64,000 nucleotides of DNA from Acidimicrobiaceae bacterium (lineage in GTDB: Bacteria > Actinomycetota > Acidimicrobiia > Acidimicrobiales > RAAP-2): NCBI GenBank assembly GCA_003133325.1, contig PKXA01000024.1, positions 1-64,000 on the forward strand, in the 5' to 3' direction. Made by a program: the position numbers and the translations under genes. Below are positions 3-56,023 of this stretch, piece after piece. The stretch's first letter is position 1; each line of letters opens with the position of its first letter. Under the pieces are notes generated by a model, which searched no databases, had not been told where the DNA came from, and worked only from the letters and a program-made list of their open reading frames with translations.

Positions 3-182
3 GCCCTGGGCCTCGAGCGGGGTCATCGGACACTCACCATCCTTCGCAAGGGCGGGAAGACCGTCACCATCCCAATGGCACCTCGTACGGCGCGGGCAGT
101 CGATCTGGCCATCGGAGAACGTGACAGTGGTCCGATCTTCATCACGGCGGACGGTCGGCGTCTTGATCGTCACGGGGCCAGC
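3..182 (+). pseudogene. tyrosine recombinase fragment, C-terminal catalytic part
   Basis: The first 60 codons read as the middle of a tyrosine recombinase catalytic domain: a GHRTLTILRKGGK strand carrying the beta-hairpin lysine, then TIPMAPRTARA and a GPIFITADGRRLDRHGA segment typical of XerC/phage-type integrases of actinobacterial mobile elements. The gene enters from beyond the left edge. The similarity stops near base 180, where the frame runs into the 3' end of the opposing integrase, so the HxxR and Tyr motifs are missing. I read it as the remnant of an older integrase cut by arrival of the neighbouring element. The family is clear from the pattern; the exact breakpoint is not. Confidence 0.55.
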
Positions 183-1392
183 CGAGCGCCCGTCCGAGCC
201 CGTCGGCGGCGTCGCGGTCCCGAGCCTCGACTGCGTGGGCGTAGACGGCCAACGTCACCGATGGGTTGGCATGCCCCAGTCGGGATGCGACCGTCTTGGG
301 GTCGAGTCCTTGCGCCACCATCTGCGTTGCAGACAGATGGCGGAGGTCGTGGAACCGGAATTGCCAAGTCTCGACCCGGGGCGGGTCAGCGGCAAGGGCC
401 TCGGACTCCATCGTCCTGCAGAGACGGTGAAAAGCGCGGGTGAGGCTATTCGGAGTCCGGGGGGCGAACCCGTCAGCCAACGTCGACCACACGAACGCAT
501 CGGCCGACAGTGGCACACAGGCAGTAGTCGCCTCGGACTCGGCCCGGGCCTTCCGGGCGGTCAACAGTGACACCGCTACCGGGTCAAGGGCGATAGCGCG
601 GACCTGGTGAGTCTTCGGGTCTTTGACTCCCCACGTCGACTTCACCTGCCAAATGGATCGGCGCACGGTGACCCTCGAGCTGGGCTAGTCGATGTCCGAC
701 CACTGGACGCCGCAGATCTCACCACGTCGCATTCCGGTGAGCATGGCGAAAAGGAGGATCGGTCCGAGGTCTGGCGAGCTGCTCTCGGCTGCTCGAAAAA
801 CAAGGGCACGCGCCTGGTCGACCGTTGGCACGTGCATCTCCGGCTTCGACACTGTTTGGAGGTCGACATCGTCGGCCGGATTCTCCGGCGTCATCTTCCA
901 CTTTGTTGCCTGGTTGAGTGCAGCGCGAATAATGCGGTGGTGGTGGAGCAGGTTGGCCGGCGACATTCCGTCTTTGAGAAGCGAGTTGTAGTAGCGGTCC
1001 AGATCAAGCGTGCTGATTTTCGCCACCTCCCTATCGCCCAACGGTCCGACCTTGATCCGAGTTGCCTTCGACCGATAGCGGTGGAGCGTGTTGGGCGATC
1101 GTCCGCGGGTCTCGCCGTGTTCGATCCATTCGTCGAGGAGCTGTGAGAGCGTCCGGATCTTTTCGGGCTCGACCTTCTCCCCGTACTTCCCAGCGGCGAT
1201 GTCGGCGACAAGTTGCGCCCGCTCCTTCTTCGCTTCGCGGATGCCCACACCCTCTTCGCGTCGCTGGCCAGGGTGCACGTACGTCTTCACTACCTACCTG
1301 CCCGTAGCGGCGTTGTACGCTCGCAACTCGTAATGACCTGGCGACCTTTCCCTGATCTCGGCAGTCGGCTTGCGGTCCTTGGCGAGTCCCAT
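142..1392 (-). pseudogene. tyrosine integrase interrupted by two in-frame TAG codons
   Basis: The reading frame is 417 codons from an ATG at 1392. It is open except for two TAG codons, one after the N-terminal ...AYNAATGR segment (about 1294-1296) and one after ...GVQWSDID (686-688). No frameshift is needed: the three open pieces line up as one integrase. The pieces contain an N-terminal arm-binding region, a SAM-like core-binding domain (RTLSQLLDEWIEHG...), the catalytic Arg in TGMRRGEICG, the HxxR box in FHDLRHLSATQM, and LGHANPSVTLAVYAH with the nucleophilic Tyr. It lies next to the att-like site at 1456, as an integrase normally does. Both TAGs could come from CAG by one C-to-T change, which favours pseudogenisation over recoding, because genes nearby end in TAG. 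Confidence 0.75.
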
Positions 1393-1400
1393 ATCCACAG

Positions 1401-1421
1401 ACTGGGGCAAAGACTAGGGCA
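1401..1421 (+). repeat. putative integrase arm-type sites, left pair
   Basis: ACTGGGGCA at 1401-1409 and ACTAGGGCA at 1413-1421 are 12 bp apart. The same pair with the same 12-bp spacing recurs at 1612-1632 and 28548-28568. Close direct repeats beside an integrase gene and an att core are the usual layout of arm-binding sites; the binding role is inferred. Confidence 0.55.
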
Positions 1422-1455
1422 GAGTGAACCTTAGAGAGACAAAAGACCAGCGTAA

Positions 1456-1496
1456 GGGGCAGTAGCTCAGTGGTTAGAGCAGGGGACTCATAATCC
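1456..1496 (+). repeat. att-like site: 5' half of a CAU tRNA gene
   Basis: These 41 bp are identical to 28610-28650, the first 41 bp of a complete CAU tRNA. Identity includes the acceptor 5' strand, the D arm and the anticodon (CAT at 1489-1491), and stops in the 3' strand of the anticodon stem. After that the sequence is unrelated and no T arm follows, so this copy cannot make a tRNA. It has arm-type repeats on both sides, so it looks like an attP-type junction, as forms between tandem elements or when an attP is carried in. Confidence 0.75.
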
Positions 1497-1564
1497 TTCT
1501 GGGAACTGGAAACGACGGAGCCGGAGTGGCCCGAACCGGACGTTTCCGCAGATGAGCGTCGGTG

Positions 1565-1594
1565 CAACCGGAAGCAACTGGAAGCAACCGGAAC
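1565..1594 (+). repeat. three 10-bp tandem repeats
   Basis: CAACCGGAAG, CAACTGGAAG and CAACCGGAAC follow each other without gaps between the att-like site and the right arm-site pair. Repeats in phase with the helix could bind an accessory factor, but no role is shown. Confidence 0.5.
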
Positions 1595-2163: not shown

Positions 2164-2757
2164 CTACTGCGCTACCGGAGGGGTCCAGGCGTGCCAGCTA
2201 CGGTCCCACGGCACGACCCCGCGGGTGAGGCTCTCTTCGACCATCGCACAGGTGTCGTAGAGGCGCAGCGCGTCGGCTTGGTCGTAGACACCCATCGCCA
2301 CGGCCATCTCGAGCTCATCCTCGTCTCGTCGGTTCCAGCTCGAGAAGTCAGCGGCGACGATGAGGTCGAGGGTCTCGTCCATCGTGTCAAACCCGTGCGG
2401 TCCGCGACGTAGAGGCTCTTGGAAGTTCACGTACCACGATGCGACGCCACCCTCCTCGAGGACCGTGGCAAAGACCTCGAAGGGCTGGCCGTGGGGCGCG
2501 ATGCGCAGCATCCCGGGCGGCAAGAACTCCTTCTTGTGGAGGTCCCATTCGCCTGAGAGCCACATCGAGAAGCATCTCTCGCCGTGCTCGACATCGACGG
2601 GGTAGTCGACGAGGGTCCCCGGTGCCAGATACGACACGAGGTGCTCGTCGGTGTCTTCGACCACGGTCACCGGGCGCACCGTCCACACCTTGCCGCGGAG
2701 AACCTCTCGAATGGCAATCCGATCGCCGGGTTGGAAGCGTCGCGAGCCGTTGGCCAT
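2164..2757 (-). CDS. DUF402 domain protein (FomD / nucleoside-diphosphatase-like fold)
   Basis: The 197-residue protein has the DUF402 pattern: an N-terminal strand region with RGKVWTVRPVTVVEDTDEHLVSYLAPGT, a WYVNFQEPLRR segment, and the signature FDTMDETLDLIVAADFSSW followed by KDEDELE-like NRRDEDELEMAVAMG. Characterised relatives (Ntdp, FomD, SC4828) are cytosolic metal-dependent nucleotide phosphatases. The acidic residues of the D-x-x-D and DEDELE segments would hold the metal. Its substrate here cannot be read from sequence. The gene stands alone, and its 3' end faces repeat copy A. The start at 2757 is the only good ATG and has no strong ribosome site. Confidence 0.8.
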   Translation of the reverse strand: MANGSRRFQPGDRIAIREVLRGKVWTVRPVTVVEDTDEHLVSYLAPGTLVDYPVDVEHGERCFSMWLSGEWDLHKKEFLPPGMLRIAPHGQPFEVFATVLEEGGVASWYVNFQEPLRRGPHGFDTMDETLDLIVAADFSSWNRRDEDELEMAVAMGVYDQADALRLYDTCAMVEESLTRGVVPWDRSWHAWTPPVAQ

Positions 2758-3115: not shown

Positions 3116-3769
3116 ATGGGGGTAGTGACCTTGCTTGCCCTTTTCGATCTCGACAACACCTTGCTGGACCGAGAGAAGGCGTTTGGCTTATGGGCCGACC
3201 GCTTCATCGCTTCACACGGTCTGGGTCAGGGTGCCCGGGCGATGATCGATCGAGCCGATGTCGACGGTGCAACTCCTCGTGACGAGTTTTTCGCACGGAT
3301 CCGACAGGAGCTGAATATCACCACCGAGGTGGACGAGCTGGTCGCGAACTACCGCGTGGTCTACCCATCCCTCTACTCCGCCGAACCGGAGATGATCAAA
3401 GGAGTCCGATTGCTTCGATCATCAGGCTTCAAGGTGGGAGTCGTCACCAACGGCCCTCCATCGCAACAGGCCAAGCTCGAGGCTGCAGGCGTCGCGGTGG
3501 AGTTCGATGCCGTCTGCATTTCCGCATTGGTGGGCTCACGGAAGCCGGACATTGCGATCTTCAGAGAAGCAGCCCGAGTCTGCAACCTCCCGCTGGATGG
3601 CTGGATGGTAGGCGACTCGGCCGAAGCTGACATCGGCAGCGGAGCCAATGCTGGGCTCAAGACCATCTGGATGGCTCGTGGTCGGGATTGGCCATCAGAT
3701 GACTTCGTGCCGGACCACATTGTTGACTCGATCCCCCAGGCGGTTGACGTGATCCTCGCGTCAACGTAG
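3116..3769 (+). CDS. HAD-superfamily hydrolase, subfamily IA
   Basis: The 217-residue protein has the four HAD motifs in order: FDLDNTLLD near residue 10 (nucleophile and acid Asp), VVTNGP near 115, a Lys in GSRKPD near 145, and GDSAEADIGSGANAG near 165. The helical cap between motifs I and II is of C1 type. Relatives hydrolyse small phosphate esters such as phosphoglycolate or sugar phosphates in the cytosol. The substrate is not predictable. It is monocistronic, and its stop precedes repeat copy B. The start at 3116 places two residues before the first hydrophobic strand; an internal start a few codons later is possible. Confidence 0.85.
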   Translation: MGVVTLLALFDLDNTLLDREKAFGLWADRFIASHGLGQGARAMIDRADVDGATPRDEFFARIRQELNITTEVDELVANYRVVYPSLYSAEPEMIKGVRLLRSSGFKVGVVTNGPPSQQAKLEAAGVAVEFDAVCISALVGSRKPDIAIFREAARVCNLPLDGWMVGDSAEADIGSGANAGLKTIWMARGRDWPSDDFVPDHIVDSIPQAVDVILAST

Positions 3770-3790
3770 AAGTATCCCCGAACGCTACCG

Positions 3791-3984
3791 GTTCGCAGCG
3801 TGGCCAAAGCCGGCCGACACCGAGCATGCTTGTCATTCGCGAGCACACCCGACGTGCCTGATTCGTTCGGCGCTGCCCTTCGGTGTCCGGCCGTCGTCGT
3901 TCTGGCGCGTTGTTCGGCGCCCGGGCCGGTGAGCTTGATCGCTGACTCGGGTGCGGTCGGCGGCACGCACAGCACTGGCAGCTG
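3791..3984 (+). repeat. dispersed repeat family, copy B
   Basis: This copy opens with GTTCGCAGCGTGGCCAAAGC and CGAGCATGCTTGTC, then CGAGCACACCCGACGTGCC. The core TTCTGGCGCGTTGTTCGGCG and the block GTGCGGTCGGCGGCAC follow, and it ends at AGCACTGGCAGCTGA. It sits between the convergent 3' ends of the HAD and SDR genes. Confidence 0.65.
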
Positions 3985-4170
3985 AATGTGGCTCGATGGG
4001 CTCCGGTCCAGGGCCCGTGGATCACCCGGGTAACGCCGGATCAGCAGCTCCCAGTCGCTTACAGTTCCACTATGCCTGCAAGAAGAGCTGCGCCGGGAGA
4101 CCAGAGGCGCGAAATACCAGTATCTCGAGTTCTCAGAAAGGCACTTCCGAATGCCCATCGCTGCCTCAGG

Positions 4171-5538
4171 TTAGGAGGTACTTACACGTCTCACTCGATA
4201 GTGAACCAAGGCTCGGAAGACCTTGCGGTGCACGGGCTGGAGGATTTTCCAATAGACGAAGCCCGGAACTCCTAGCGGGCGAAATGCCCCAACCTGAACA
4301 AGCGCACGCTCGTCGCACTGATAGCCGAACCAGGCTTCTCCGAAGAACCAGGAAGTGGCGCGCAATACCAGCATCCCAGGGTCGCGTCGCGTCACGTACC
4401 ACCAGTCGACCGTCTGGCCCTCGAGGAGCGCAGGCGGGCAACTGAGGGTCCATCGTTCCCCGACGAGGCGACCGAGCATGGCTCGCACCTTCCAGGCGAA
4501 CGCGAGGCCGTACCAGCTATAGCTGCCACCCATACGGTCGAGGTCCGCATCGAGCCGCAGAGACGTTTCGTCCGAAAGGGGTGCCGATACACGGACGGTG
4601 TAGACACCATCGCAGAGTCCGCTCTCGCGGCTCAAAAGGTCGTGGTCGAGGGCTTTCGCCTGGTCGTCCAGGGCGGCCGAAAGCGCGTCCGCCAACCCGG
4701 CTGGCTCGAAAGCGAAGGCAACATCGGTTCGGGCCCGGTCGTGGACGACCACTTCGGTCACAAGACTTTCGATGAGTGCGTGACTGACTCGGCGATCGAC
4801 CGGCGTGACCAGATCCAACCAGTATGACGATAGTCGCGGAGTGAGATAAGGGACGTCGACGATGCGTCGACGGTGAAGACCACGAGCGGTCGCGTAGGCG
4901 CCGATCATCTCTCGGTATGAGGTGACCTCAGCACCACCAATCTCATAGACCCCCGGCTCGACCTCGAGTGCCCCTATCAAATAACGGACCACGTCGGCAG
5001 AGGCGATCGGTTGGATCCTCGTGCGGACCCAGCGCGGGCAGACCATGAACGGAAGCCGCTCAGTAAGGTACCTGAGCATCTCGAAGGAGATACTCCCCGC
5101 TCCCAAGACGACCGCGGCTCGCAGCTCAACGACCGGAACGTGCCCACTGGCTAGCGCGACGCCGACCTCCTGGCGGCTCGACAAATGCTCGGACTCCGGT
5201 TCATGCCCGAGGCCGCCGAGATAGATGATGCGCTCGACGGCGGCTGCTGCTGCCGTTCTGCCAAAGTTTTCGGCCAGCTGGCGGTCGCGAGCGCGGAAGT
5301 CCCCAGCGCTCAGCGAGTGCACAAGGTAAAAGGCGCTCTCGCATCCCGCCAAGGCGTCGAGCATCGCTGCCTCGTCCGCCACGTCGACGGCCCGTCCTTC
5401 AGCACCGGGGATCTCGGGACGGTGACGTGAGAGGCCGATCACCTCGTGTCCCGCCGCGACGAGCTCTACAGAGAGCGCCCGGCCCACGAAGCCACTTGCT
5501 CCAATCACCGCGACTCGCACCGCCCCACGATGCACCAA
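4171..5538 (-). CDS. NAD(P)-binding SDR protein with C-terminal DUF2867 domain
   Basis: The 455-residue protein has two parts. Residues 1-290 form an atypical SDR/NmrA-like Rossmann fold: VRVAVIGASGFVGRAL (GxxGxxG), the acidic strand end, YLVHSLSAGDF, IIYLGGLGHEPESEHLSSR, and RTRIQPIASADVV. Residues 310-455 match DUF2867, with YTVRVSAPLS and ERWTLSCPPALLEGQTVDWWYV and the closing GALVHYRVRR-like end (KVFRALVHYRVRR). The same fusion is known from YbjT-like proteins, which have no firmly assigned substrate. Its 5' end is near repeat copy C and its 3' end faces copy B. A GTG at the VRVAVIG position is an alternative start. Confidence 0.8.
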   Translation of the reverse strand: MVHRGAVRVAVIGASGFVGRALSVELVAAGHEVIGLSRHRPEIPGAEGRAVDVADEAAMLDALAGCESAFYLVHSLSAGDFRARDRQLAENFGRTAAAAAVERIIYLGGLGHEPESEHLSSRQEVGVALASGHVPVVELRAAVVLGAGSISFEMLRYLTERLPFMVCPRWVRTRIQPIASADVVRYLIGALEVEPGVYEIGGAEVTSYREMIGAYATARGLHRRRIVDVPYLTPRLSSYWLDLVTPVDRRVSHALIESLVTEVVVHDRARTDVAFAFEPAGLADALSAALDDQAKALDHDLLSRESGLCDGVYTVRVSAPLSDETSLRLDADLDRMGGSYSWYGLAFAWKVRAMLGRLVGERWTLSCPPALLEGQTVDWWYVTRRDPGMLVLRATSWFFGEAWFGYQCDERALVQVGAFRPLGVPGFVYWKILQPVHRKVFRALVHYRVRRVSTS

Positions 5539-5680
5539 AACCAGACAACAATGCGAGCCGTGTCATTCGTTGCCCGAAATCCGTAAGACGGACCGTGTCG
5601 GGGACGGCAAGCGGAACAATGTCCGAGAATAATTACGATCGCGCGGGCCAAGCCTCCGTTGAGGGTGACGCCGATCGCCG

Positions 5681-5940
5681 GTTCGCGGCGTGGCCCAAGC
5701 CCTCCCACCCCCAAGTAAGCTTGCAACACGCGAGCGCACGCGTAGGTGCCGTTCTGCACTGCGCCCAGGGTGGCAACGGCCGTCGTTATGGCGCGTCGTT
5801 CTGTAGTCGGTCGGAGACGCGAGATCGCCGACTCAGGTGCGTTCCGCGGCACCCACAGCACCGGCTGCCGAGCGCGGTTCTGAGTGCGTTGCGGTCCGCA
5901 GGCGGCCGCCGTGCGCTCCTGTTGCTGCGCCCGGAACGGC
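5681..5940 (+). repeat. dispersed repeat family, copy C
   Basis: This is one of the longest copies. GTTCGCGGCGTGGCCCAAGC is followed by CGAGCGCACGCGTAGGTGCC, the core GGCGCGTCGTTCTGTAGTCG, GACTCAGGTGCGTTCCGCGG, CACCCACAGCACCGGCTG, and the tail CTGCGCCCGGAACG. In this subtype and in copy E, AGTCGG and CCGACT can pair across the middle. It lies between the SDR start and the APC permease start. Confidence 0.7.
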
Positions 5941-6078
5941 ACTTTCGGGCGTGTGGAATACTTCGGAGACAGGTCGCAGTTCGACTGAAGACCAGCAATC
6001 CCGGTGCGTGGCCCGCCGAAGCCGGCTGTCTCGCCGATGAGATGCGAATACGTTCATCGACAGAGGTAGGTTCGTTTG

Positions 6079-7425
6079 GTGCCGGAAGCTGCGCCGGAAG
6101 CTACTGCCTCGACAGTGCCACCCGATCGGCCGCGGCGGACGCTCGGCTTAGCGAGCACGGTCGCGATCGGGATCGGCGGAATGGTCGGTGGCGGCATCTT
6201 CGCCGTTCTCGGATTGTCCATTGAGCTGGCCCGCGGTGCAGCTCCGATCGCGTTTCTCATCGCCGGAGGCGTGGCCCTCCTCACCGCGACCTCCTATGCC
6301 CGGCTTTCGGTCGCCTACCCGAGCCGCGGCGGAACCGTCACCTTTCTCAACGAGACGTTCGGGTCGGGTATCTTCGTTGGTGGACTCAATGTCCTGTTGT
6401 GGCTCAGCTACGTCGTGATGATCTCCCTGTACGCCGCTGCCTTTGCCGGATATGCGGACAGTCTCCTCCCAGGGCCCCCGTCGGCCGTGGTCGATCATCT
6501 CCTCCTCAGCGGCGTCATCATCGTGATCGCCGTCCTCAACATCGCCCGGGCCTCCGTCGTGGGTCGCGCCGAGGAATGGATTGTCGCGGCCAAGGTGGCC
6601 ATCCTGCTCCTCGTCGTGGCCGCGGCCTTTCACGGTGTGCACCCGTCCCACCTGTCCCCACATGCGTGGCCTGATCCTCTGGCCATCGTCGGAGGAGGCA
6701 TGGTGATCTTCGTCGCCTACGAGGGTTTCGAGCTCATCTCCAATGCCGCCGAGGACGTGCGCAATCCCCGTCGCACGCTCCCGCTGGCGCTCTATATCTC
6801 CGTCGGGTTCACGATCGCCTTGTACGTGCTGGTGTCCATCGTGACCGTTGGCACCCTCACCATCACTCAGGTGCGTGGCGCAAGCTCCTACGTCCTCGCC
6901 GTGGCGGCTCGTCCGAGCCTCGGTCAGGTCGGATTCGTGCTTGTGGCGGTCGCTGCTCTGCTCTCGACAACGTCGGCCATCAATGCCACCCTCTATGGCT
7001 CCGCCCGACTTTCGTGGACGATCGCCCGTTCCGGTGAGCTTCCAGAGGCGTTCGACAAGAAGGTCTGGGACCGACCCGTCGAGGGTCTACTGGTCACCAC
7101 TGGTCTCACTCTCGTCGTCGCCAATGCCTTCAACCTCAACAGCATCGCCCTCACCGGCAGTGCAGCGTTCTTGATCATTTTCGCCGCAGTGAACATCGCC
7201 GCTGCTCGCCTGGCCAAACGCAGAACACAGCGCGCACTGGCTGTGGCCGCAGCTGTGGCATGCGCCGCCTCGCTCGTTGCCTTGATCCTGGAGGAGCGGA
7301 GCCGCAACCTCTGGGGCGTGGTCATCGTTGGTGGGCTCGTCGGCGGATCGTTCGCCATGGAAGCCCTCTATCGGAAGGTCACGCATCGGGTGATACCTGC
7401 CCACATCGCCACAGCCAGACGCTAA
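6079..7425 (+). CDS. APC-superfamily amino-acid permease
   Basis: The 448-residue protein has about 12 membrane segments. The first carries the APC substrate loop signature IGIGGMVGGGIFAVLG, and the sixth carries the expected FVAYEGFELISNAAEDVRNP motif that follows the unwound helix. NPRRTLPLALYISV and SRSGELP-like SIARSGELPEAF segments also fit. Such carriers move amino acids or polyamines across the cell membrane by proton or exchange coupling; specificity is not predictable. The GTG at 6079 has AGGTAGG 8 bp upstream and is preferred over the TTG at 6076. The heliorhodopsin gene follows 190 bp downstream on the same strand, too far to assume an operon. Confidence 0.88.
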   Translation: MPEAAPEATASTVPPDRPRRTLGLASTVAIGIGGMVGGGIFAVLGLSIELARGAAPIAFLIAGGVALLTATSYARLSVAYPSRGGTVTFLNETFGSGIFVGGLNVLLWLSYVVMISLYAAAFAGYADSLLPGPPSAVVDHLLLSGVIIVIAVLNIARASVVGRAEEWIVAAKVAILLLVVAAAFHGVHPSHLSPHAWPDPLAIVGGGMVIFVAYEGFELISNAAEDVRNPRRTLPLALYISVGFTIALYVLVSIVTVGTLTITQVRGASSYVLAVAARPSLGQVGFVLVAVAALLSTTSAINATLYGSARLSWTIARSGELPEAFDKKVWDRPVEGLLVTTGLTLVVANAFNLNSIALTGSAAFLIIFAAVNIAAARLAKRRTQRALAVAAAVACAASLVALILEERSRNLWGVVIVGGLVGGSFAMEALYRKVTHRVIPAHIATARR

Positions 7426-7616: not shown

Positions 7617-8384
7617 GTGACCGACAAGGAGACTTCAACCGCCCGGCTCCGGCCCTACAACGCTGCCGCAGGGTGCCTGCACCTCGTCCAGGCGGTTCTC
7701 ATCGTCATCCTGGCCAACAGCTTTTCGCTGCCAGTGCGCGCCACCTACATGACGGGGCCACCGGGCCCCGGCGTTGGGCACCAGTCGGTCGTCCTGTTCA
7801 ACGTCGGGTTCGCAGCTGCGATCGGCGCCTTCTTCTTGCTCTCGGCCGTGGCCCACTTCTACGTGGTCGGACCGGGCTGGGCGAAATACCAGGCCGAACT
7901 GCTGATCGAACGCAACCCCTTTCGCTGGATCGAGTACTCACTCAGCTCATCGATCATGGTCGTTCTCATCGCCATGCTGGTCGGTATCAGCGACATCGCA
8001 GCGCTGATCGCGCTCATCGGCGTCAACGCGTCGATGATCGGCTTCGGCTGGATGCAAGAGCGATACGAGCGTCCAGGCACCGGGCTCGGGCCATTCTGGA
8101 TCGGATGCCTGGCCGGCATCGTCCCGTGGATCGCCATCGGGATCTACCTGGTTGGCCCCGGGGCCAACCAGCACCCGCCCGGGTTCGTCTACGCGATCTT
8201 CTTCTCGCTGTTCGTCTTCTTCAACTGCTTCGCCATCAACCAGTGGCTGCAATACAAGAAGGTCGGTCGGTGGGCCGACTACCTCTTCGGCGAGCGGGTC
8301 TACGTAACCCTCTCGCTTGTCGCCAAGAGCCTCCTCGCCTGGCAGATCTTCGCTTCCACATTGGCGTCTTCTGTCGCCCATTGA
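7617..8384 (+). CDS. heliorhodopsin (retinal-binding seven-helix photoreceptor)
   Basis: The 255-residue protein has seven membrane segments and the diagnostic heliorhodopsin motifs: FRWIEYSLSSSIMVV (counterion Glu106), GVNASMIGFGWMQERY, WIGCLAGIVPWIAIGIYLV, and SLVAKSLLAWQIF with the Schiff-base Lys237. His22 and His80, which line the inner cavity in known members, are present. Heliorhodopsins are inserted with the N terminus inside the cell, have slow photocycles and do not pump ions. Proposed roles are signalling or modulation of partner enzymes. No retinal-synthesis gene (carotenoid oxygenase) is visible nearby, so retinal would come from elsewhere. The start is GTG at 7617 without a clear ribosome site. 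The neighbours are an APC permease upstream and an Abi-alpha-like gene downstream. Confidence 0.95.
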   Translation: MTDKETSTARLRPYNAAAGCLHLVQAVLIVILANSFSLPVRATYMTGPPGPGVGHQSVVLFNVGFAAAIGAFFLLSAVAHFYVVGPGWAKYQAELLIERNPFRWIEYSLSSSIMVVLIAMLVGISDIAALIALIGVNASMIGFGWMQERYERPGTGLGPFWIGCLAGIVPWIAIGIYLVGPGANQHPPGFVYAIFFSLFVFFNCFAINQWLQYKKVGRWADYLFGERVYVTLSLVAKSLLAWQIFASTLASSVAH

Positions 8385-8583: not shown

Positions 8584-9408
8584 GTGACCGCTGAGCTAGA
8601 CCTGATCGTGTCGGGAGTCACCGGGGCGATGGCTGGCGGTGTGGTTCGCCCGTTGCTCGCTCCGTTTGACGCGGTATCAGACGTGTGGAAGGCGGCCATT
8701 GCGAAACGGTTAACCACAACCGGGGAGAGGATCGCTCGGAAGCGTGGGCAACGAACGTTGGAGATCAGCGAACGAACAGCGGTCAATGCCCTTGCTGCCT
8801 CTGCACTAACGGATGATGCGGTTGTCCAGGAGTACCTTGCCGGCGTCGTGGCATCGGCAACTTTGGAAAATGACAATGCCCACATGCTCGCACTGGTCGG
8901 GCGCTTGACTCCGCTCCAGATGAGGTTGCACTACGGGCTCTACCTGGGAGCAGCTATGTATACCCGGAGAGAGGTAGCCGCTTTCGAAGACGCCCTCCAA
9001 CGATGGGAGGAAGCCAACGATTATGACGGCGCTAGAGAGATGGTCACTCTCATCACCGATCCGGGACTGCCTCGGGCAGACGATTGGGACCGGGCAGAGA
9101 GAGCATTGGACAACCTTCGGCGTGAGGGTTTGGTCGACTCGCGAGCGACGTACTGGGACTCGACGGAACAAGGGATTGTTTCATTCAAGATGACACCCTT
9201 TGGCATCGATCTGTTTGCAGCAGCCTTAGGAGTCGAGATCGTCGCTTTCGGGGATCTCTGCGAGTGCGAGTTGGGCGTGCTGCAACTCGACCCCGTGATC
9301 CCTGCCATGGATACGGAATCGATGGCGCGATTTGAGGACGTGTACGGCAATACGGATCAAGTCAACGCCTGGAAACGCATGATCGAAGTCAGCGACGCGG
9401 ACGTCTGA
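8584..9408 (+). CDS. Abi-alpha-like (DUF4393-type) protein
   Basis: The 274-residue soluble protein begins with a Gly/Ala-rich segment (GVTGAMAGGVVRPLLAPFDAV). A long helical region follows, with LEISERTAVNALAASALTDDAVVQEYLAGVVASAT, which fits the Abi-alpha/DUF4393 pattern of a paired-helix 'damage' segment. The C-terminal third has PGLPRADDWDRAERALDNLRREGLV and a winged-helix-like beta region. DUF4393 members are listed as abortive-infection proteins, but their mechanism is unsettled. The assignment rests on pattern only. AGAAG-type purines just before the GTG at 8584 may serve as ribosome site. Confidence 0.4.
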   Translation: MTAELDLIVSGVTGAMAGGVVRPLLAPFDAVSDVWKAAIAKRLTTTGERIARKRGQRTLEISERTAVNALAASALTDDAVVQEYLAGVVASATLENDNAHMLALVGRLTPLQMRLHYGLYLGAAMYTRREVAAFEDALQRWEEANDYDGAREMVTLITDPGLPRADDWDRAERALDNLRREGLVDSRATYWDSTEQGIVSFKMTPFGIDLFAAALGVEIVAFGDLCECELGVLQLDPVIPAMDTESMARFEDVYGNTDQVNAWKRMIEVSDADV

Positions 9409-9473
9409 GACTCGGAAGCTTGGGGAAGAGTCGAGACTCCGACCCCTGACCGGGTTGATAGCCCAGAACACCG

Positions 9474-9600
9474 GTTCGCGGCGTGGCCCAAGCCCTCCCA
9501 CCCCCAAGCATGCTTACCGCACGCGAGCACACCCGAGGTGCCGATATGCGCTGCGGCCAGGATGGCGACGGTCGTCGTTCTGGAGCGGCGTTCTGTGCTC
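9474..9600 (+). repeat. dispersed repeat family, copy D (short)
   Basis: This copy shares its opening with copy C (GGTTCGCGGCGTGGCCCAAG, CCCTCCCACCCCCAAG), then GCGAGCACACCCGAGGTGCC and GTCGTCGTTCTGGAGCGGCG. It ends early and lacks the CACCCACAGCACCGGCTG block. Confidence 0.6.
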
Positions 9601-9624
9601 GTCGGCTGCCCGTGAACGCCGAAC

Positions 9625-10867: not shown

Positions 10868-11194
10868 ATGACCACTCCCTCCGCCCACCCGAACCACCTG
10901 ATGAGTGTCGACCCGGTTCGGCACCATTCTCCCCGCCATCACTTCATGGTGGTGGCGTCGTGTTTGGCGCTGTTGGCCCTGGCCATCGCCCCCCGGGCGT
11001 TCGCGGCGGTCATCGGCGCGCTGTTCTGTATAGGAGCCGTGTTTGGGTTCGTTGCCATCCGTGGCGTCTGGCGCACGCTGCGCCGCCCGCTCGGTTCCCT
11101 GTCGGTGGGCGATGCCCTGCTCGGCGCCTTCGCCCTGCGCTGGTGGAACCGGCGCCATCCCGGCCGGCGAACTGCTCCACGTCGACTGCCATGA
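10868..11194 (+). CDS. small membrane protein, possibly DUF4395-related
   Basis: The open frame could run from 10559, but that extension is low-complexity. The ATG at 10868 begins a 108-residue protein with a short polar head (MTTPSAHPNHLMSVDP), two adjacent membrane helices (VVASCLALLALAIAPRAFAAVIGALFCIGAVFGFVAI) and a basic tail. The DP...F...ALLALAI...F.IGA..G pattern resembles the start of DUF4395 proteins. Those are small two- to four-helix membrane proteins of unknown role. It precedes a DUF427 gene by about 55 bp on the same strand. Confidence 0.45.
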   Translation: MTTPSAHPNHLMSVDPVRHHSPRHHFMVVASCLALLALAIAPRAFAAVIGALFCIGAVFGFVAIRGVWRTLRRPLGSLSVGDALLGAFALRWWNRRHPGRRTAPRRLP

Positions 11195-11223
11195 GCCAAG
11201 GCCTGCCGACGAAAGGAATAGCG

Positions 11224-11253
11224 ATGTCGCCGGAGCCGTTGAACCAGTCATGA
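11224..11253 (+). CDS. nine-codon ORF coupled to the DUF427 gene
   Basis: ATG at 11224 follows GAAAGGA with good spacing and encodes MSPEPLNQS. Its TGA (11251-11253) overlaps the ATG of the DUF427 gene in an ATGA. The only good ribosome site here belongs to this mini-ORF, so the next gene may depend on coupled re-initiation. Whether the peptide matters is unknown. Confidence 0.35.
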   Translation: MSPEPLNQS

Positions 11254-11615
11254 CGCCAGGCCACTCGATCAGCATCGTCCCCACCCTCGCTCACGTAGAA
11301 GTCCGGCTGGGCGGCCGGATGCTCGCCACCACCGACCGGGCCATGAAGCTCGACGAGACCGGGCTGCCCACCCGCTATTACCTGCCGCGGGACGACGTGC
11401 AGATGGATCTCCTGCGGCCCACGACGTTCCAGACCAATTGCCCGTTCAAGGGTGAGGCGTCCTATTGGTCTCTCGACATCGGCGGGGAAACGCATGACGG
11501 CATCGTGTGGAGCTACGAGACGCCGACGGCTCAGGCCGCCGAAGTGAGAGGGATGTTGTCCTTCTACCCCGACCGTACCGAGGTGACGGTCGACGGTCAG
11601 TCGCTTCCAGACTGA
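11250..11615 (+). CDS. DUF427 domain protein
   Basis: The 121-residue cytosolic protein matches the DUF427 fold (a small Mss4/cereblon-like beta domain). VEVRLGGRMLATTDRAMKLDETGLPTRYYLPRDDV is followed by the signature TNCPFKGEASYWSLDIGGETHDGIVWSYETP and a closing MLSFYPDRTEVTVDG. Cys and His positions of the signature are kept. Family members have no agreed biochemical role. The start at 11250 matches family length and is joined to an upstream nine-codon ORF by an ATGA overlap. Confidence 0.88.
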   Translation: MTPGHSISIVPTLAHVEVRLGGRMLATTDRAMKLDETGLPTRYYLPRDDVQMDLLRPTTFQTNCPFKGEASYWSLDIGGETHDGIVWSYETPTAQAAEVRGMLSFYPDRTEVTVDGQSLPD

Positions 11616-11969: not shown

Positions 11970-12231
11970 GGCGATGCGCCGTGCCCCAAGTCGCCCGATC
12001 CCGAGCGTGCTTGCCGTCCGCCGGCACACCCGACGCGCCGTTCTGCGCTGCTGGTTGGATGGCGATGCCGTCGTTCTGGCGCGTCGTTCTGTAGTCGGTC
12101 GGAGACGCGAGATCGCCGACTCAGGTGCGTTCGGCGGCACCCACAGCACCGGCTGCCGAATGCGGATCTGTGTCCTCTGGGGCCAGGCCTGGCGGTGTCC
12201 GTGTTTGCTTGAGTTGCATGCCCCCAACAAC
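11970..12231 (+). repeat. dispersed repeat family, copy E
   Basis: This copy is very close to copy C over GGCGCGTCGTTCTGTAGTCG, GGAGACGCGAGATCGCCGAC and CACCCACAGCACCGGCTG. The left part has CGAGCGTGCTTGCCGTCCGC, and the tail ends near TTGAGTTGCATGCCCCCAAC. It lies between the DUF427 gene and the 3' end of the H+-ATPase gene. The rest of the gap (11616-11969 and 12232-12489) shows no gene. Confidence 0.7.
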
Positions 12232-12489: not shown

Positions 12490-15009
12490 TCATCGGCTCA
12501 CTTTGGCGAGCTGCGGTGTCACATTGGACGGTGTCTTGGTCTTCATTGGATCGAGAATCCGATACGCGAGCAGCTTCACCCGATCCGTTACGAGGAACCA
12601 TGCCAGGGCATATCCCCATACGAAGGCTGCATATCCCCACCCGATCGGAGTCATAAAGATCCCAAAGACCGCAATGAGGGTGGCCAGCATCTGCGTGCCC
12701 AATACAGCCAGCAGGAGAACACGGGCGGGGCGTATCGACCAGAAGGGGCCGCGTGTCCGGGCGAGGAAGACGGTCAGATGTCCAGCAACAGACAGCGTCA
12801 GGTACATGAGGGTCCGCAGATGCGCATGGTCGAGGTGGAATACCTGCTTGCCTAGATAGAACAGGCCAAAGGCAGCAATCGGTCCGACGATGCCGAGCAC
12901 CGTGGCGACCCCCAGTACGAGACGCATGTTCCAGGCCTCGGGCTGATCCTTGTAGCGAACGTTGTCGTAGGCGATGGACAGGATCGCACCGTCGTTGAGC
13001 AACGCCAGCATGACGATCTGTATCGCCGTCACAGGAAAGAAATTGAAGATCAGGATGACGGCTGTGATGAACACCAGCACCCGGAGCGTCTCAGCGATTC
13101 GGTAAATCGCGTAGCTGTTCATCCGCTGGAAGATTCTCCGGCTCTCTTTGATCGCTTCGATGATCACTGCAAGGCCGGGTGTCGTCAGCACGATGGAAGC
13201 CGCTGCACGAGCGGCGTCGGTCGCGTCCGAGACAGCGATACCGCAGTCAGCCTTCTTCAGCGCTGGGGCATCGTTCACCCCGTCTCCCGTCATGCCGACG
13301 ATGTGCCCCCCCTTCTGCAGGACGTCAACAATGTGGAATTTGTGTTCGGGGAACACCTGGGCAAAGCCATCGGCCTTTTCGATCGACTCAGCCGTCGCTG
13401 CCGTCTCTTCGTGCTTGACATCGCCGAGGCCCGCAGCATCGAGAATGTCGGAACCCATCCCAAGCGTCTTGGCAGTTTCCTGGGCGATGGCCAGTGCGTC
13501 GCCGGTGACCATCTTGACGTCGACGCCCATCTGTCGCGCAGTAGCGATGGTGGCCTTGGCATCTTCGCGTGGCGGGTCGAATAGGGGTAGCACGCCAAGG
13601 AACTGCCATGGACCGTCTCCCTCGGCCCGGGCCACGCCCAACGAACGAAAGCCCCGTGCAGCGAAGTCGTTGACGGCCTTATCAACCTCTGGCTTCACAG
13701 TCGACGCATTGGCCGACAGCTCCAGGATGACCTGGGGAGCGCCTTTCGTGACCTTGAAGGAGGCTCCATCAGCACCTGTGACCGTCGCCTCTGTGCACTT
13801 GCGCACGGCATCGAAGGGTTGGAAGTGGACCACCTCATAACCCTGTAATGCAGTTTCGCTCTTCAGACCACCGAGAACAGCCAGATCGATGGCATCGGCA
13901 TTGTCCGCACGGGAGGCGAGCGCAGCATTGAGGATGAGCTGTTCGGCGGGGAGATCGTTGACGGAGTATGGATCGCCGAGCGTCAGCTTGTTCTGGGTCA
14001 GGGTGCCGGTCTTGTCGGTGCACAATACGTCCACCCCAGCCAGTTCCTCGATCGCCACCAAACGGCTCACGATCGCCTTCTTCGTGGCGAGCAGTCGAGC
14101 ACCGACCGCCATCGTCACTGACAGCACCGTCGGCATCGCCACGGGGATCGCGGCCACGGTCAGAACCAGGGCGAACTGCAGCGTGGTGAAGATCGCATCG
14201 CCGCGGATGATCGAGACGACGGTGATGACGCTCACCATCGCCACTGCGAGGATGATCAAGAAGGTGCCGATCTTCAGCACTGCCCGTTGAAAGTGGCTGA
14301 CGGTCTGCGCTTCCTGCACCAACTCCGCCGTCTTACCGAAGTAGGTGTTGGTGCCGGTGGCATAGACCAGGGCGCCGATCTCACCCTGCCGGATGATCGA
14401 GGCGGAGAAGACTGCCTCACCGGACGTGCGGGAGGCGGGCAGCGATTCTCCGGTCAGAGCGGACTGATCCACTTCGACCGGGTCGCCTGCCAGCAGGCGC
14501 GCGTCGGCCGGCACGATGTCACCGAGGCGAAGGCGAATGACGTCACCTGGCACCAGCTCACGGGACGGCGGGGTGATCCACTTGCCGTCACGGAGCACCC
14601 GGGCCTTGATGGCGAGTTCGGCCTTGAGGGCAGCAATGGCTTTGCCTGCCTGGTGTTCTTCCCAGAACCCGATTCCGGCGTTGGCCAAGAGCAGGACGAG
14701 GATGATGAAGAAGTCCGGCCAGTGCTTCAGCACGCCGGACAGGATCACTGCAGCCTCGATCATCCAGGGGATGGGACCCCAGAAGTAGGTGAGGAACTTC
14801 AGGAGCGGGTTGTCCGGCTTCTCTTCGATCTCGTTCGGCCCGTACTGGATCAGCCGCTTCTCTGCCTCTGCCTGGGTGAGGCCCTCCGGTGAGGACGCCA
14901 AGCGCTTCTCCACCTCGACCAGGGACAGGTCTTTCAGATCGTCGTTCGCATCTGGCTTCGATCCCGGCTTCAAGTCGGGAGCCTCGGGCGAGATGCCATC
15001 AGATTCCAT
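12490..15009 (-). CDS. plasma-membrane H+-translocating P-type ATPase (P3A)
   Basis: The 839-residue protein has the full P-type order: LTQAEAEKRLIQYGPNEI at the cytosolic N terminus, TGES (residues 186-189) in the actuator domain, PVAMPT in M4, DKTGTLT with phospho-Asp332, the KGAP nucleotide-binding motif, and MTGDGVNDAPALKKADCGIAV. About ten membrane helices are predicted. The P3A pattern (IPWMIEAA, VLTVAAIPVAMPTVLSVTM, NSYAIYRIAET) points to proton export, giving membrane potential and pH control. A TTG at 15024 extends the frame five codons. The ATG at 15009 has GGAAG at proper spacing and is preferred. It is divergent from the MarR-CLC operon. Confidence 0.92.
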   Translation of the reverse strand: MESDGISPEAPDLKPGSKPDANDDLKDLSLVEVEKRLASSPEGLTQAEAEKRLIQYGPNEIEEKPDNPLLKFLTYFWGPIPWMIEAAVILSGVLKHWPDFFIILVLLLANAGIGFWEEHQAGKAIAALKAELAIKARVLRDGKWITPPSRELVPGDVIRLRLGDIVPADARLLAGDPVEVDQSALTGESLPASRTSGEAVFSASIIRQGEIGALVYATGTNTYFGKTAELVQEAQTVSHFQRAVLKIGTFLIILAVAMVSVITVVSIIRGDAIFTTLQFALVLTVAAIPVAMPTVLSVTMAVGARLLATKKAIVSRLVAIEELAGVDVLCTDKTGTLTQNKLTLGDPYSVNDLPAEQLILNAALASRADNADAIDLAVLGGLKSETALQGYEVVHFQPFDAVRKCTEATVTGADGASFKVTKGAPQVILELSANASTVKPEVDKAVNDFAARGFRSLGVARAEGDGPWQFLGVLPLFDPPREDAKATIATARQMGVDVKMVTGDALAIAQETAKTLGMGSDILDAAGLGDVKHEETAATAESIEKADGFAQVFPEHKFHIVDVLQKGGHIVGMTGDGVNDAPALKKADCGIAVSDATDAARAAASIVLTTPGLAVIIEAIKESRRIFQRMNSYAIYRIAETLRVLVFITAVILIFNFFPVTAIQIVMLALLNDGAILSIAYDNVRYKDQPEAWNMRLVLGVATVLGIVGPIAAFGLFYLGKQVFHLDHAHLRTLMYLTLSVAGHLTVFLARTRGPFWSIRPARVLLLAVLGTQMLATLIAVFGIFMTPIGWGYAAFVWGYALAWFLVTDRVKLLAYRILDPMKTKTPSNVTPQLAKVSR

Positions 15010-15063
15010 ATGGGTATCTTCCAACCTTTCGTGTGCCGCACGCGTTGGCCGGACCGCTCAGCG

Positions 15064-15089: not shown

Positions 15090-15575
15090 AATCCTAGTGA
15101 CTCTGGTCCATCTACGTCGCTTGACTCGGTGATCGATGCTGTGCTGTCGGCCAGCCGGGTGCTCGTGGCGGTGGCGGCACGGTCTCTCGCCGATGTCGCC
15201 GAGGAGGTCACCCTCACGCAGTACCGGACGCTCGTCGTGCTCGCGTCCCGCGGACCTCAGAACCTTGCGGGGCTCGCTGAGGCAGTGGGAGTGACACCGG
15301 CAACAGCGACCCGGATGTGCGACCGCCTGGTGCGAAAGGACCTCATTCGTCGAAGGACAGAACGAGACGATCGCCGCCACCTCCGGGTCATGCTGACGGA
15401 GAAGGGACGGGCACTCGTCGATGCCGTCACAGATCGTCGGCGTCGGGAGATCGAACGCATCATGAACGAGATTCCGCCCGAGGAGCAGGTTGTCCTTATT
15501 CAAGCGCTCGGACGGCTCGCCACCGCTGCGGGCGAGGTGCCAGAGCAGGACTGGAGTTCGGGCTGGGACCTATGA
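15087..15575 (+). CDS. MarR-family transcription regulator
   Basis: The 162-residue protein has the MarR winged helix. VTLTQYRTLVVLASRGPQNLAGLAEAVG is followed by the recognition helix region VTPATATRMCDRLVRKDLIRRRTERDDRRHLRVMLTEKG, with the wing DDRRHLRV. Flanking helices would form the dimer interface. No cysteine pair for redox sensing is seen apart from the one in the recognition helix, so a small-molecule ligand is more likely. The stop overlaps the CLC start (ATGA), and the divergent gene is an H+-ATPase, so control of both is plausible. Confidence 0.88.
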   Translation: MNPSDSGPSTSLDSVIDAVLSASRVLVAVAARSLADVAEEVTLTQYRTLVVLASRGPQNLAGLAEAVGVTPATATRMCDRLVRKDLIRRRTERDDRRHLRVMLTEKGRALVDAVTDRRRREIERIMNEIPPEEQVVLIQALGRLATAAGEVPEQDWSSGWDL

Positions 15576-17677
15576 CCGAGGAAGTTATTCCAGATTCCGG
15601 TCGCGCCGTGTGGGTGCGGTCCCTCTCGGCCCGAGCGGCCCGGTGGGTGGCCTCAGCCTCGTACCTCAAGAAGTGGACCGTGCTCGGAGTTGTCATCGGA
15701 GCGGTAGCCGGGCTCGGCGCCATCGTCTTTTACGAGGCCTTGGTCGCCTGCACCCATCTCTTTTTGGGCGTGCTCGCCGGCTACCGGGTGCCAACCCCAG
15801 TTGGCGAAGGTGCTCACGTCGCGTCCGTCTCAGCGGCACGTCCGTGGTCGCTCCCCCTCATTGCAGGACTCGGAGCACTGCTTGGGGCGATACTCGTATT
15901 CCGCTTCGCACCCGAAGCCGAAGGCCACGGCACCGATGCGGCGATCTCCGCGGTGCATCACAACCCCCGGGGCGTCCGGTTCCGTGCGGTGATCGTCAAG
16001 ATCGTGGCCTCGGCCCTCACTATTGGTTCTGGGGGCTCAGGTGGGAGAGAGGGGCCGACCGGGCAGATCAGTGCGGGCTTCGGTTCTCTGCTCGCCAGGG
16101 TGCTCGAACTCGAACCGGCCGACGGTCGCATAGCGGTGGCGACCGGTATCGGGTCGGGCATCGGGGCCATCTTCGGAGCGCCTTTGGGTGGTGCGGTGTT
16201 GGCTTCGGAGATCCTCTACCGCGACGATTTCGAACCGGCGGCACTTCTGCCGTGCTTCATCGCATCAGCCGTCAGCTATGTCGTCTTCAGCTCGGTCGAG
16301 GGGTTCTCCCCCCTGTTCGGCTACGTGGCGAGCTACCACTTCACCGACCCAGTCCAGTTGGTCTGGTTCGCGCTCATCGGCGTGCTGGCTGGTCTGATCG
16401 GACTTTTCTACGCCAAGGGCTTCTATGGGATGGCCGACCTCTTTCACCGACTGCCCTGGCCCCGTTGGGTCAATCCAGCCCTCGGCGGAATCCTGGTTGG
16501 CGCAATCGGTATCGCCATCCCCGAGGTGCTCGGCACCGGGTACGGCTGGGTGCAAACGAGCCTCGGTCACGGTTTGCTCTCGATTCCGCTCTGGATCGTC
16601 CTGATCCTTCCTTTCGCCCGGATCCTGGCCACTGGGCTCTCCATTGGCTCGGGAGGGTCGGGGGGGATCTTCGGGCCGGGCATGGTGATCGGAGCCTTTC
16701 TGGGGGCGTCGGTGTGGCGGCTCTTTGAACCCATGTTCCCTTCCATGGGCCACAGCCCGGCGCCCTATGTGATCGTCGGCATGATGAGCTGCTTCGGCGG
16801 CATCTCACGGGCACCGCTGGCCGTCATGCTCATGGTGGCCGAAATGACAGGAAGCCTGTCCATCATCACTCCGGCCATGGTCGCAGTTGGCATCTCGTGG
16901 CTCATCGTGCGGCGCAACGACGACACCATTTACCGCAGTCAGCTCAAGAGTCGGGCCGACGCACCTGCTCAGCGCCTTCTCGCCGGCCTCCCTCTTCTCG
17001 CTGCCATCCCGACTACTCGGGCCATGGTGAAGCCAAGTTTGGTGATCTCCACTGAACTCAGCACCGATGCGGTCAAAGAGAGAATGGATCTGGACGGACT
17101 CAATGGAGCACCGGTTGTGGATCCCGCCGGTCGTTTCGAAGGCATCTTGGCTCGGGCAGCGCTCGCCTCGAAAACTGAACACCACCGAACGGTGAGTGAT
17201 CTCATCGATGCGGGAGCTCCCATCGTCTCGGCGTCGAGCAGGCTCGATGTGGCGTTGGAGAGTTTGACCGAAGCGCCATTGTCATGGGTGCCCGTCCTCG
17301 ATGGTGACCGACGGGTCGTCGGCACGTTGTCGATCTCAGACGTCGTGCGCGCCTACCGTCAAGAACTGGTGGCAAGTGCAGAGCGGGTGAGTGAACTCGG
17401 TGAAATTACCGGAGCCTCGCAGATGACAATCACTGCTGATTCACCCATCACCAACAAGACCCTTCGCCAGGCCGGACTGCCCAAGGGCCTCCTGATCACC
17501 TCGATCACGCGAGGGGATCAGGTCTTCGTACCCAATGGTGACACCGTATTGGCCGTCGGCGATCACCTCTCGGTACTCGGGCAACCGAGCGACCTGAAAA
17601 GCATCGGCCAGGTTGATCCACTTGGCACCCATTCATTGCAACCCCACAAACGCTGGCCAGTTCGGCACCGGGAATAG
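15572..17677 (+). CDS. CLC-family chloride channel/transporter with CBS pair and TrkA-C-like tail
   Basis: The 701-residue protein has a CLC membrane core (residues about 30-450). It includes GSGGSGGREGPTGQ with gating Glu160 and the second anion-binding loop GSGGSGGIFGPGMVIGA. The cytosolic part holds two CBS domains (about 475-600; LNGAPVVDPAGRFEGIL and LSWVPVLDGDRRVVGTLSISD) and a final RCK_C/TrkA-C-like domain (ITADSPITNKTLRQAGLP...FVPNGDTVLAVGDHLSVLG). CLC proteins conduct or exchange chloride for protons. Together with the divergent H+-ATPase this suggests acid or membrane-potential control. It is translationally coupled to the MarR gene by ATGA. Confidence 0.92.
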   Translation: MTEEVIPDSGRAVWVRSLSARAARWVASASYLKKWTVLGVVIGAVAGLGAIVFYEALVACTHLFLGVLAGYRVPTPVGEGAHVASVSAARPWSLPLIAGLGALLGAILVFRFAPEAEGHGTDAAISAVHHNPRGVRFRAVIVKIVASALTIGSGGSGGREGPTGQISAGFGSLLARVLELEPADGRIAVATGIGSGIGAIFGAPLGGAVLASEILYRDDFEPAALLPCFIASAVSYVVFSSVEGFSPLFGYVASYHFTDPVQLVWFALIGVLAGLIGLFYAKGFYGMADLFHRLPWPRWVNPALGGILVGAIGIAIPEVLGTGYGWVQTSLGHGLLSIPLWIVLILPFARILATGLSIGSGGSGGIFGPGMVIGAFLGASVWRLFEPMFPSMGHSPAPYVIVGMMSCFGGISRAPLAVMLMVAEMTGSLSIITPAMVAVGISWLIVRRNDDTIYRSQLKSRADAPAQRLLAGLPLLAAIPTTRAMVKPSLVISTELSTDAVKERMDLDGLNGAPVVDPAGRFEGILARAALASKTEHHRTVSDLIDAGAPIVSASSRLDVALESLTEAPLSWVPVLDGDRRVVGTLSISDVVRAYRQELVASAERVSELGEITGASQMTITADSPITNKTLRQAGLPKGLLITSITRGDQVFVPNGDTVLAVGDHLSVLGQPSDLKSIGQVDPLGTHSLQPHKRWPVRHRE

Positions 17678-17861
17678 CTTTTAGCATGGAGAGTGGTTCC
17701 CTTGCCGTTGTCTCAGAACGACGAGTCCCGGAGTAGATTCCCGCACAGGTACGTCATGCGGGACATCCGGAGGCACGGTTCGTTCGCTGTTCATCCGCCG
17801 ATCCGGATGCCCCAGCACGCGCGGCTCTTTCCCCCCCCGCTGCATCCCATGCCGGTTGGAC

Positions 17862-18090
17862 GGCGTAGCCCGCATCACCTGACGCCGAGCCTGCTTGCCA
17901 TAGGCGAGCGCGCCTGACGTGCCTGCGCTGTGGCGGGGATTGTGGTGACCGTCGTTCCGGCACGTTGTTCGGGGCCCGAGCGGGTCCGGTTGGCGGTACC
18001 CACAGCACCGGGTGCCGAGCGCGGTTCTCTATGCTTTCCAGTCGGGGCAGGCGGCCTCTGTGCTTGCTCCTGTTGCATGCGCCCAGAACG
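17862..18090 (+). repeat. dispersed repeat family, copy F
   Basis: GACGCCGAGCCTGCTTGCC is followed by GGCGAGCGCGCCTGACGTGC, GTCGTTCCGGCACGTTGTTC, TACCCACAGCACCGGGTGCC, and a tail like copy A (TTTCCAGTCGGGGCAGGCGG, TTGCATGCGCCCAGAACG). It follows the CLC gene. The rest of 17678-18208 shows no gene. Confidence 0.65.
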
Positions 18091-18208
18091 TCGGGGATAC
18101 CCTTCGTCGACCGTGTGACCCTCTCGTTCGTGCATTGCTGCGCTGGGTGTAGGGTCATACCTAAGCAGTACGCATGGTGCGTGAAAGACGCGTTGTCGTG
18201 AGCCAGAC

Positions 18209-19461: not shown

Positions 19462-19911
19462 ATGACCACGACAATCAACCACCTTGACCACGCGCGCCGC
19501 CATGCTGGTGCGATGGTCGACACAGCTCCACCGGACCCCGAGGTCCCCGAACGTTCTTCGGGACGCCGGCAGTTCTCAGCCAAGTACAAGGCCAAGGTCC
19601 TGGCTGAATACGACGCCCTGCCCCGATCGGCCCGGGGGGCGATGCTGCGCCGTGAGGGCCTGTACTCGTCGTTGATCACGACGTGGCGCCGCCAACGCGA
19701 CCAAGGCGCCGATGCGGCCCTGGCCCGACCGGCAGGACGAGGGAAGGCCGATCCCCGAGATCGTGAGATCGTCCGCCTGAAGCACAAGGTCGACCGACTG
19801 GCCGGCGAACTCGACAAGTCCAGACAGGTCGTCGAGATCCAGAAAAAACTCTCCGCGCTGCTCGAGCAACTCGCCACGGACAGCACAGCGGAGAACGGCG
19901 AGAGGACATGA
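19462..19911 (+). CDS. IS3-family transposase OrfA
   Basis: The 149-residue protein has the OrfA layout: an N-terminal DNA-binding region (RRQFSAKYKAKVLAEYDALP, SARGAMLRREGLYSSLITTWRRQRD) of transposase_8/HTH type, then a leucine-zipper-like helix (DREIVRLKHKVDRLAGELDKSRQVVEIQKKL) for multimerisation. The stop overlaps the OrfB start as ATGA. OrfB may therefore be made by coupled re-initiation rather than the -1 frameshift usual in IS3. Confidence 0.88.
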   Translation: MTTTINHLDHARRHAGAMVDTAPPDPEVPERSSGRRQFSAKYKAKVLAEYDALPRSARGAMLRREGLYSSLITTWRRQRDQGADAALARPAGRGKADPRDREIVRLKHKVDRLAGELDKSRQVVEIQKKLSALLEQLATDSTAENGERT

Positions 19912-56009: not shown

Positions 56010-56023
56010 CCGGGTGCCCGGCT

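Follow-up and report, generated by a model that had tools for sequence, protein, structure and literature searches.

The window analysed here covers the initial 64 kb of contig C127 in the source genome (G000), a 4.05-Mb draft in 133 contigs with 97% completeness and 3% contamination. A heliorhodopsin (HeR) gene is located at 7617-8384 on the plus strand as an exact open reading frame of 255 amino acids with a GTG start, and it is the single HeR copy in the genome. The predicted protein matched Pfam PF18761 with 325 bits (E = 2.5e-97, cut-off 26.7; model positions 1-242 of 242) and the NCBIfam HeR equivalog NF038020 with 323 bits (cut-off 100; model positions 1-244 of 244). It also gave a full-length match to 48C12 (PDB 6su3; E = 3.7e-79), the HeR of an uncultured freshwater actinobacterium (PDB 6su3, 6uh3). 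In the 6su3 alignment, Glu106 (counterion), Lys237 (Schiff-base lysine), and His22 and His80 (inner histidine pair) correspond to Glu107, Lys241, His23, and His80 of 48C12, respectively. An earlier note had read a 255-residue HeR with these four residues from the DNA, and the profile matches and the alignment confirmed it. Judged by its sequence, the product is almost certainly a full-length, canonical heliorhodopsin. The gene itself thus belongs to a known family, and it is the genomic context that carries the interest. Unlike 48C12, which shares the counterion, the Schiff-base lysine, and both inner histidines, the HeR described here is located on a tRNA-linked island of a host in which the test used found no phytoene synthase.

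The genes to the left of HeR encode a DUF402 protein (2164-2757, minus strand; PF04167, 37.5 bits), a HAD hydrolase (3116-3769, plus strand; PF00702, 64.6 bits), an NAD(P)-binding SDR with a C-terminal DUF2867 domain (4171-5538, minus strand; PF11066, 40.8 bits; PF13460, 36.1 bits), and an APC-type amino acid permease (6076-7425, plus strand; PF13520, 135.6 bits), the last lying between SDR and HeR and 191 bp from HeR. To the right of HeR is a gene for a 274-aa protein (8584-9408, plus strand) with a sub-threshold match to Abi_alpha (15.9 bits, cut-off 29). Of the two HeR neighbours named in the earlier note, the APC permease therefore stands and the Abi-alpha-like assignment does not. Further genes encode a DUF427 protein (11043-11615, plus strand; PF04248, 113 bits), a plasma-membrane-type H+-exporting P-type ATPase of type IIIA (12490-15024, minus strand; TIGR01647, 1038 bits, cut-off 615.5), and a CLC chloride channel/exchanger with CBS and TrkA_C domains (15317-17677, plus strand; PF00654, 308.6 bits), so that the H+-ATPase and CLC genes reported previously are real. 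They are followed by an IS3-like transposase pair (19462-20924, plus strand; rve and rve_3), istA and istB of an IS21 element (22265-24579, plus strand), and an AbiEii/AbiEi type IV toxin-antitoxin pair (25085-26783, minus strand; PF08843, 141.6 bits; PADLOC AbiEii 302 bits and AbiEi 189 bits).

An intact tRNA-Met(CAT) gene predicted by ARAGORN (28610-28685, plus strand) forms the right edge of this gene set and the start of the conserved core. At the left edge lies a copy of the 5' half of this tRNA with a few leader bases (1449-1496, plus strand; 95.8% identity over 48 bp to 28603-28650), which is probably an att-type remnant. The two are about 27.15 kb apart, and both edges bear tRNA sequence as a direct repeat, in agreement with the proposed 27-kb stretch between a tRNA and its partial copy. 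Homology to the congener G004 starts at window position 28609 and extends to 43928, mostly with 91-95% identity and weaker in some stretches near 30-31 kb. In G004 (contig C67), the left core flank is found 120 bp from tRNA-Met(CAT) and consists of one gene, tRNA-Asn, and a pair of long genes, which by eye we take to be rpoD and dnaG. The same left flank is present in G000 on another contig (C74:4537-10227) with 94-95% identity, after which C74 enters other sequence. Because the left flank is on C74 and the G004 homology begins only at 28609, window positions 1-28609, and more, are inserted relative to G004. The earlier view of HeR as island cargo rather than a gene kept at one locus by all close relatives was upheld, since HeR is absent from all four congeners and the G004 site lacks the island. 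It is very likely that HeR sits on an island inserted at tRNA-Met and missing at the G004 site. The base composition of the island gave no sign of foreignness, its GC content being like that of the rest, and compositional foreignness was rejected.

A tyrosine integrase gene (142-1290, minus strand; PF00589, 44 bits) is broken by an in-frame TAG at 685-687. It lies left of the partial tRNA, beyond the 27-kb interval, and likely belongs to a tandem neighbour element. No tyrosine integrase was seen between 1497 and 28609, so the interval has no intact integrase of its own. The integrase linked to the island in the earlier note, the sole one nearby, is thus interrupted and outside the interval, and we read the element as a decayed or composite island whose current mobility is putative. 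Like tRNA-targeted integrative islands, it has a tRNA at one edge with a partial tRNA copy opposite, insertion sequences, a toxin-antitoxin pair, and an empty site in a relative. It differs from them in that the partial copy is a 5' half, the integrase lies outside and is interrupted, and several att-like ends exist in G000. A third copy of the tRNA-Met 5' half was found at C23:339-386. The start of that contig (L150, C23:1-480) holds the N-terminal end of a related integrase and this 5' half, with 83% identity to window 1131-1591; a Phd-like/PIN-like pair comes next. In G001, the 11 bp present upstream of tRNA-Met match the C23-type end. On the basis of the integrase/tRNA end of C23 and the 11-bp match in G001, these sequences suggest that elements may have integrated repeatedly at tRNA-Met. 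Elsewhere on the window contig, an apparently intact tyrosine integrase lies 22 bp beyond tRNA-Arg(CCT) (window 52271-53661), possibly marking a second tRNA-linked element. Four other contigs of G000 (C63, C105, C27, and C16) each carry several adjacent tyrosine recombinase genes, reminiscent of recombinase-in-trio elements.

Six copies of a modular repeat with a consensus of about 270 bp are located on the island between 1.9 and 18.1 kb, all on the plus strand: 1881-2100, 3786-4009, 5671-5945 (between SDR and the APC permease), 9466-9622 (after the HeR unit), 11970-12226, and 17851-18095. Another copy is found on the core side (55997-56151), and a genome-wide search of G000 gave 30 matches, the repeat occurring about 35 times in all. 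One repeat family thus does dot the island, as previously noted, and it is not specific to the island. The repeats also occur at loci L106-L118 (contigs C55, C27, C54, C33, C120, C99, C90, C19, C66, C124, C101, C103, and C16), often clustered at a spacing of 1-2 kb and oriented alike within a cluster; the accessory genes between which they lie include toxin-antitoxin-like pairs. An integron/attC reading was rejected: the best match to IntI (TIGR02249) in G000 reached 67.7 bits against a cut-off of 265, GTTRRRY/RYYYAAC boxes were not seen by eye at the repeat ends, and attC sites are 57-141 bp in size versus about 270 bp for the repeat. A simple MITE reading was unsupported, as target-site duplications were not found and terminal inverted repeats were weak. 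A search for the repeat in plasmids gave no match.

The closest relatives of the window HeR, with up to 87% identity, come from uncultured metagenome-assembled genomes (MAGs) whose titles mostly read Acidimicrobiaceae or actinobacterium, several of them from bogs or lakes. In the HeR tree, the window HeR falls within a clade of 37 sequences that is well supported and, going by the labels, almost entirely actinobacterial; there, it forms a group of four with L021-L023. Two HeRs with 87% and 64% identity to the window HeR (L021 and L069) are found in the MAG 'Acidobacteria bacterium G2_25'. Both group with actinobacterial sequences, and the Acidobacteria label or the binning looks doubtful. In the relative G025 (contig C247), the HeR has an in-frame stop and is represented by overlapping pieces (L019/L020).

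Two other explanations of how HeR came to this locus have to be weighed. Assembly or binning could have wrongly fused the island with the core at the tRNA, as the genome is a draft of 133 contigs with 3% contamination and the junction tRNA has its 5' half repeated. Repeated tRNA halves are a known weak point of assembly. However, the repeat family of the island also occurs on numerous other contigs of G000 as well as in the core part of this one, a homologous int/att end starts C23, and the base composition of the island matches that of the core, which makes such a chimera highly improbable. Alternatively, HeR could be ancestral in the family and lost in the congeners, with the island having merely captured or surrounded an old gene. 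The wider family commonly has HeR (14 of 37 genomes), loss does happen, as the relative with a stop codon in its HeR indicates, and the tree position inside an Acidimicrobiia clade points to no distant donor. Yet the G004 site is empty with the core intact on both sides, and the nearest HeRs were found in other genomes and not in the sampled congeners. We regard ancestry with loss as quite unlikely, and insertion of HeR with the island at tRNA-Met as the preferred account.

Genome-wide, no phytoene synthase was detected in G000 in a search with a working control. This goes beyond the earlier observation that no retinal-synthesis gene is visible near HeR, which was itself correct. A check of the host for a carotenoid oxygenase, proposed at the same time, returned one RPE65-type oxygenase, which is common to the congeners. 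The Blh profile (PF15461) had no match in 61 genomes, and the control was equally silent. Since phytoene synthase was not found, retinal would have to come from uptake or from cleavage of scavenged apocarotenoids. Other HeR hosts are known to lack retinal synthesis, among them Ca. Actinomarinales (PMC7771536). The island indicates that a cell without phytoene synthase can gain HeR as accessory DNA, which bears on the question of the retinal source.

In a comparison of the proteins of the window with about 97 further HeR loci, SDR-DUF2867 was the only island gene to recur close to HeR. The gene at 30075-31049, outside the island, also often matched at other HeR loci and is presumably, as read from its sequence, of a widespread ABC-transporter type. 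Neither the APC permease nor the Abi-alpha-like gene recurred, and both were rejected as conserved partners; the H+-ATPase and the CLC channel were rejected as HeR partners because they showed no specific recurrence near other HeRs. The light- or stress-linked role suggested for HeR earlier is plausible, but the H+-ATPase and CLC genes that had been taken as pointers to it are not the useful evidence for it. SDR-DUF2867 is the sole PF11066 match in G000, and the congeners G001, G003, and G004 have none. In the window, SDR is divergent from HeR at a distance of about 2.1 kb and the HeR-APC gap is 191 bp, so there is no tight operon. Besides the window, five loci within the 37-sequence clade have an SDR relative less than 2 kb from HeR, at distances of 36 bp (L040), 58 bp (L032), 496 bp (L025), and 1969 and 1986 bp (L027 and L033). 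These five loci compare with 0.15 expected when one copy per 2.4 Mb is assumed (P about 5e-7, Poisson, assuming independence, with L027 and L033 being sisters in the tree). The SDR gene is divergent from HeR in L025, L027, L032, L033, and the window and directly downstream in L040. It should be noted that the L025 protein matches the SDR part only, with no match to Pfam DUF2867.

The association extended to whole genomes. Among 61 relatives, DUF2867 was present in 18 of 19 HeR-positive versus 16 of 42 HeR-negative genomes, and the sole HeR-positive genome without it was G025, whose HeR has the stop codon. Across 248 genomes of the order, the SDR fusion type, judged by open-frame length, was found in 40 of 73 HeR-positive versus 32 of 175 HeR-negative genomes (Fisher test, 3e-8, kinship ignored). 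In G033, HeR and the SDR gene are on different contigs. HeR is probably co-inherited with the SDR-DUF2867 gene. A functional coupling of the two is a more tentative proposition, and coupling by direct protein contact is unlikely. HeRs with an SDR-family neighbour make up one of ten operon groups described previously (PMC11109279), and in that group, too, the conserved neighbour is an SDR-type NAD(P)-binding gene. However, the text of that paper mentions neither DUF2867 nor a B12 regulator, and the pair described here is divergent, about 2.1 kb apart, and located on an island.

In L025 and L027, the HeR-SDR gene group includes a protein with HTH_17, B12-binding_2, and B12-binding domains, and L033 has a frame homologous to this B12 regulator. 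The proteins of these three of the five SDR-HeR loci contain a W-x9-EH motif, which we take to be the CarH cap motif. The L025 protein scored 69.9 bits against the NCBIfam CarH model NF052513 (cut-off 400), and we therefore call it CarH-like rather than CarH. The domains and motif are those of the CarH/LitR B12-dependent light regulators, but the score is far below the model cut-off and no such regulator was found in the window. A photolyase gene adjoins HeR at L033, and genes for an amine oxidase and DUF1365 are found at L025. Bacterial photo-oxidative stress sets typically contain CarH-like, photolyase, amine oxidase, and DUF1365-type genes. The window and a further 166 kb of G000 that were checked held neither a CarH-like nor a photolyase gene. 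The L033 arrangement resembles the HeR-photolyase pair of Trichococcus flocculiformis (PMC9769723), which has no counterpart in the window. In Vibrio cholerae, blue light induces CFA synthase and photolyases (PMC5241685). HeR has been linked to photolyase, MerR regulators, and SDRs (PMC11109279, PMC9769723) and to stress (PMC8612252), and precedents for sensory or regulatory HeRs have been published (PMC8612252, PMC9769723, PMC11109279). We found no co-mention of heliorhodopsin and CarH, nor a link between HeR and a B12 regulator, in the literature searched, which excluded most subscription papers and all preprints.

On the strength of SDR-DUF2867 and of the CarH-like, photolyase, and DUF1365 genes of the relatives, the best reading of these sequences is a sensory-type HeR in a light-stress gene set, with SDR-DUF2867 as its most likely partner. 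In full, this proposal states that a conventional HeR, cargo of an integrative island upstream of tRNA-Met(CAT) in an Acidimicrobiia-type genome with HeR-free sampled congeners, arrived with SDR-DUF2867 and modulates a light-stress set, and we consider the chances that it is right to be about even. Against it stand the loose spacing of HeR from APC and SDR, the missing CarH-like and photolyase genes in the G000 sequence checked, the 33 of 73 HeR genomes of the order that lack the SDR fusion together with the phylogenetically uncorrected association, the L025 protein without a DUF2867 match, and the separate contigs in G033. From homology, HeR would be expected to adopt the inverted membrane topology of heliorhodopsins, in which it may take scavenged retinal at Lys237 and then undergo a slow, non-pumping photocycle. 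Its light state could modulate the co-inherited photo-oxidative-stress genes, most plausibly the SDR-DUF2867 oxidoreductase. What is new here is the recurrence beside HeR of the SDR-DUF2867 gene, which the earlier note did not name, and this pattern hints at a possible shared light-stress role.

A less probable explanation, which still deserves serious weight, is that HeR is passive island cargo with a function of its own, its closeness to SDR-DUF2867 reflecting the commonness of both in light-exposed lineages of the order. The 33 of 73 HeR genomes of the order without the SDR fusion, the otherwise very diverse HeR neighbourhoods, and the APC gene and repeat copy lying between SDR and HeR in the window are consistent with it. 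However, adjacency in separate loci (L040, L032, and L025) is far above chance, and the single SDR-DUF2867 copy of G000 lies on the same island as HeR. HeR might instead act on the flanking APC permease, or on the 274-aa protein, in the manner of the OmrDE or glutamine synthetase partners of other HeRs. Both genes are immediate same-strand neighbours of HeR in the window, and HeR regulation of an adjacent transporter has been published (PMC11109279). The gaps of 191 and 199 bp and the failure of either gene to recur beside HeR in the other loci argue against such a partnership, as does the repeat copy between SDR and APC, since APC may accordingly have been inserted later. We consider it very unlikely.

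There is still no agreement on what HeR does, and genes found beside it repeatedly, in separate loci, offer some of the best clues. With SDR-DUF2867 as the favoured partner, its link to HeR and the CarH-like regulators provide one specific partner and one specific input to test. A bolder extension, which we think improbable, is that HeR and SDR-DUF2867 form a transferable two-gene light-response module in Acidimicrobiia. A CarH-like B12 photoreceptor would originally have governed this module, HeR would control the oxidoreductase by light, and the island would be the module in transit. If this is true, B12 and retinal, photoreceptors of different chemistry, would be linked by the module in a single regulon.

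A viral or phage origin of the window HeR was rejected, as no relative was found in INPHARED or IMG/VR. HeR on mobile DNA already has precedents, since plasmids of Lactococcus petauri (NZ_CP141705.1) and of a member of the Chloroflexota (CP069395.1) likewise carry HeR as mobile or extrachromosomal cargo, but these HeRs are 40-47% identical to the window HeR and the vehicles differ. The HeR of L. petauri (L156, NZ_CP141705.1 4146-4922) is located near an IS6 transposase on a mobilizable 10.5-kb plasmid from catfish.
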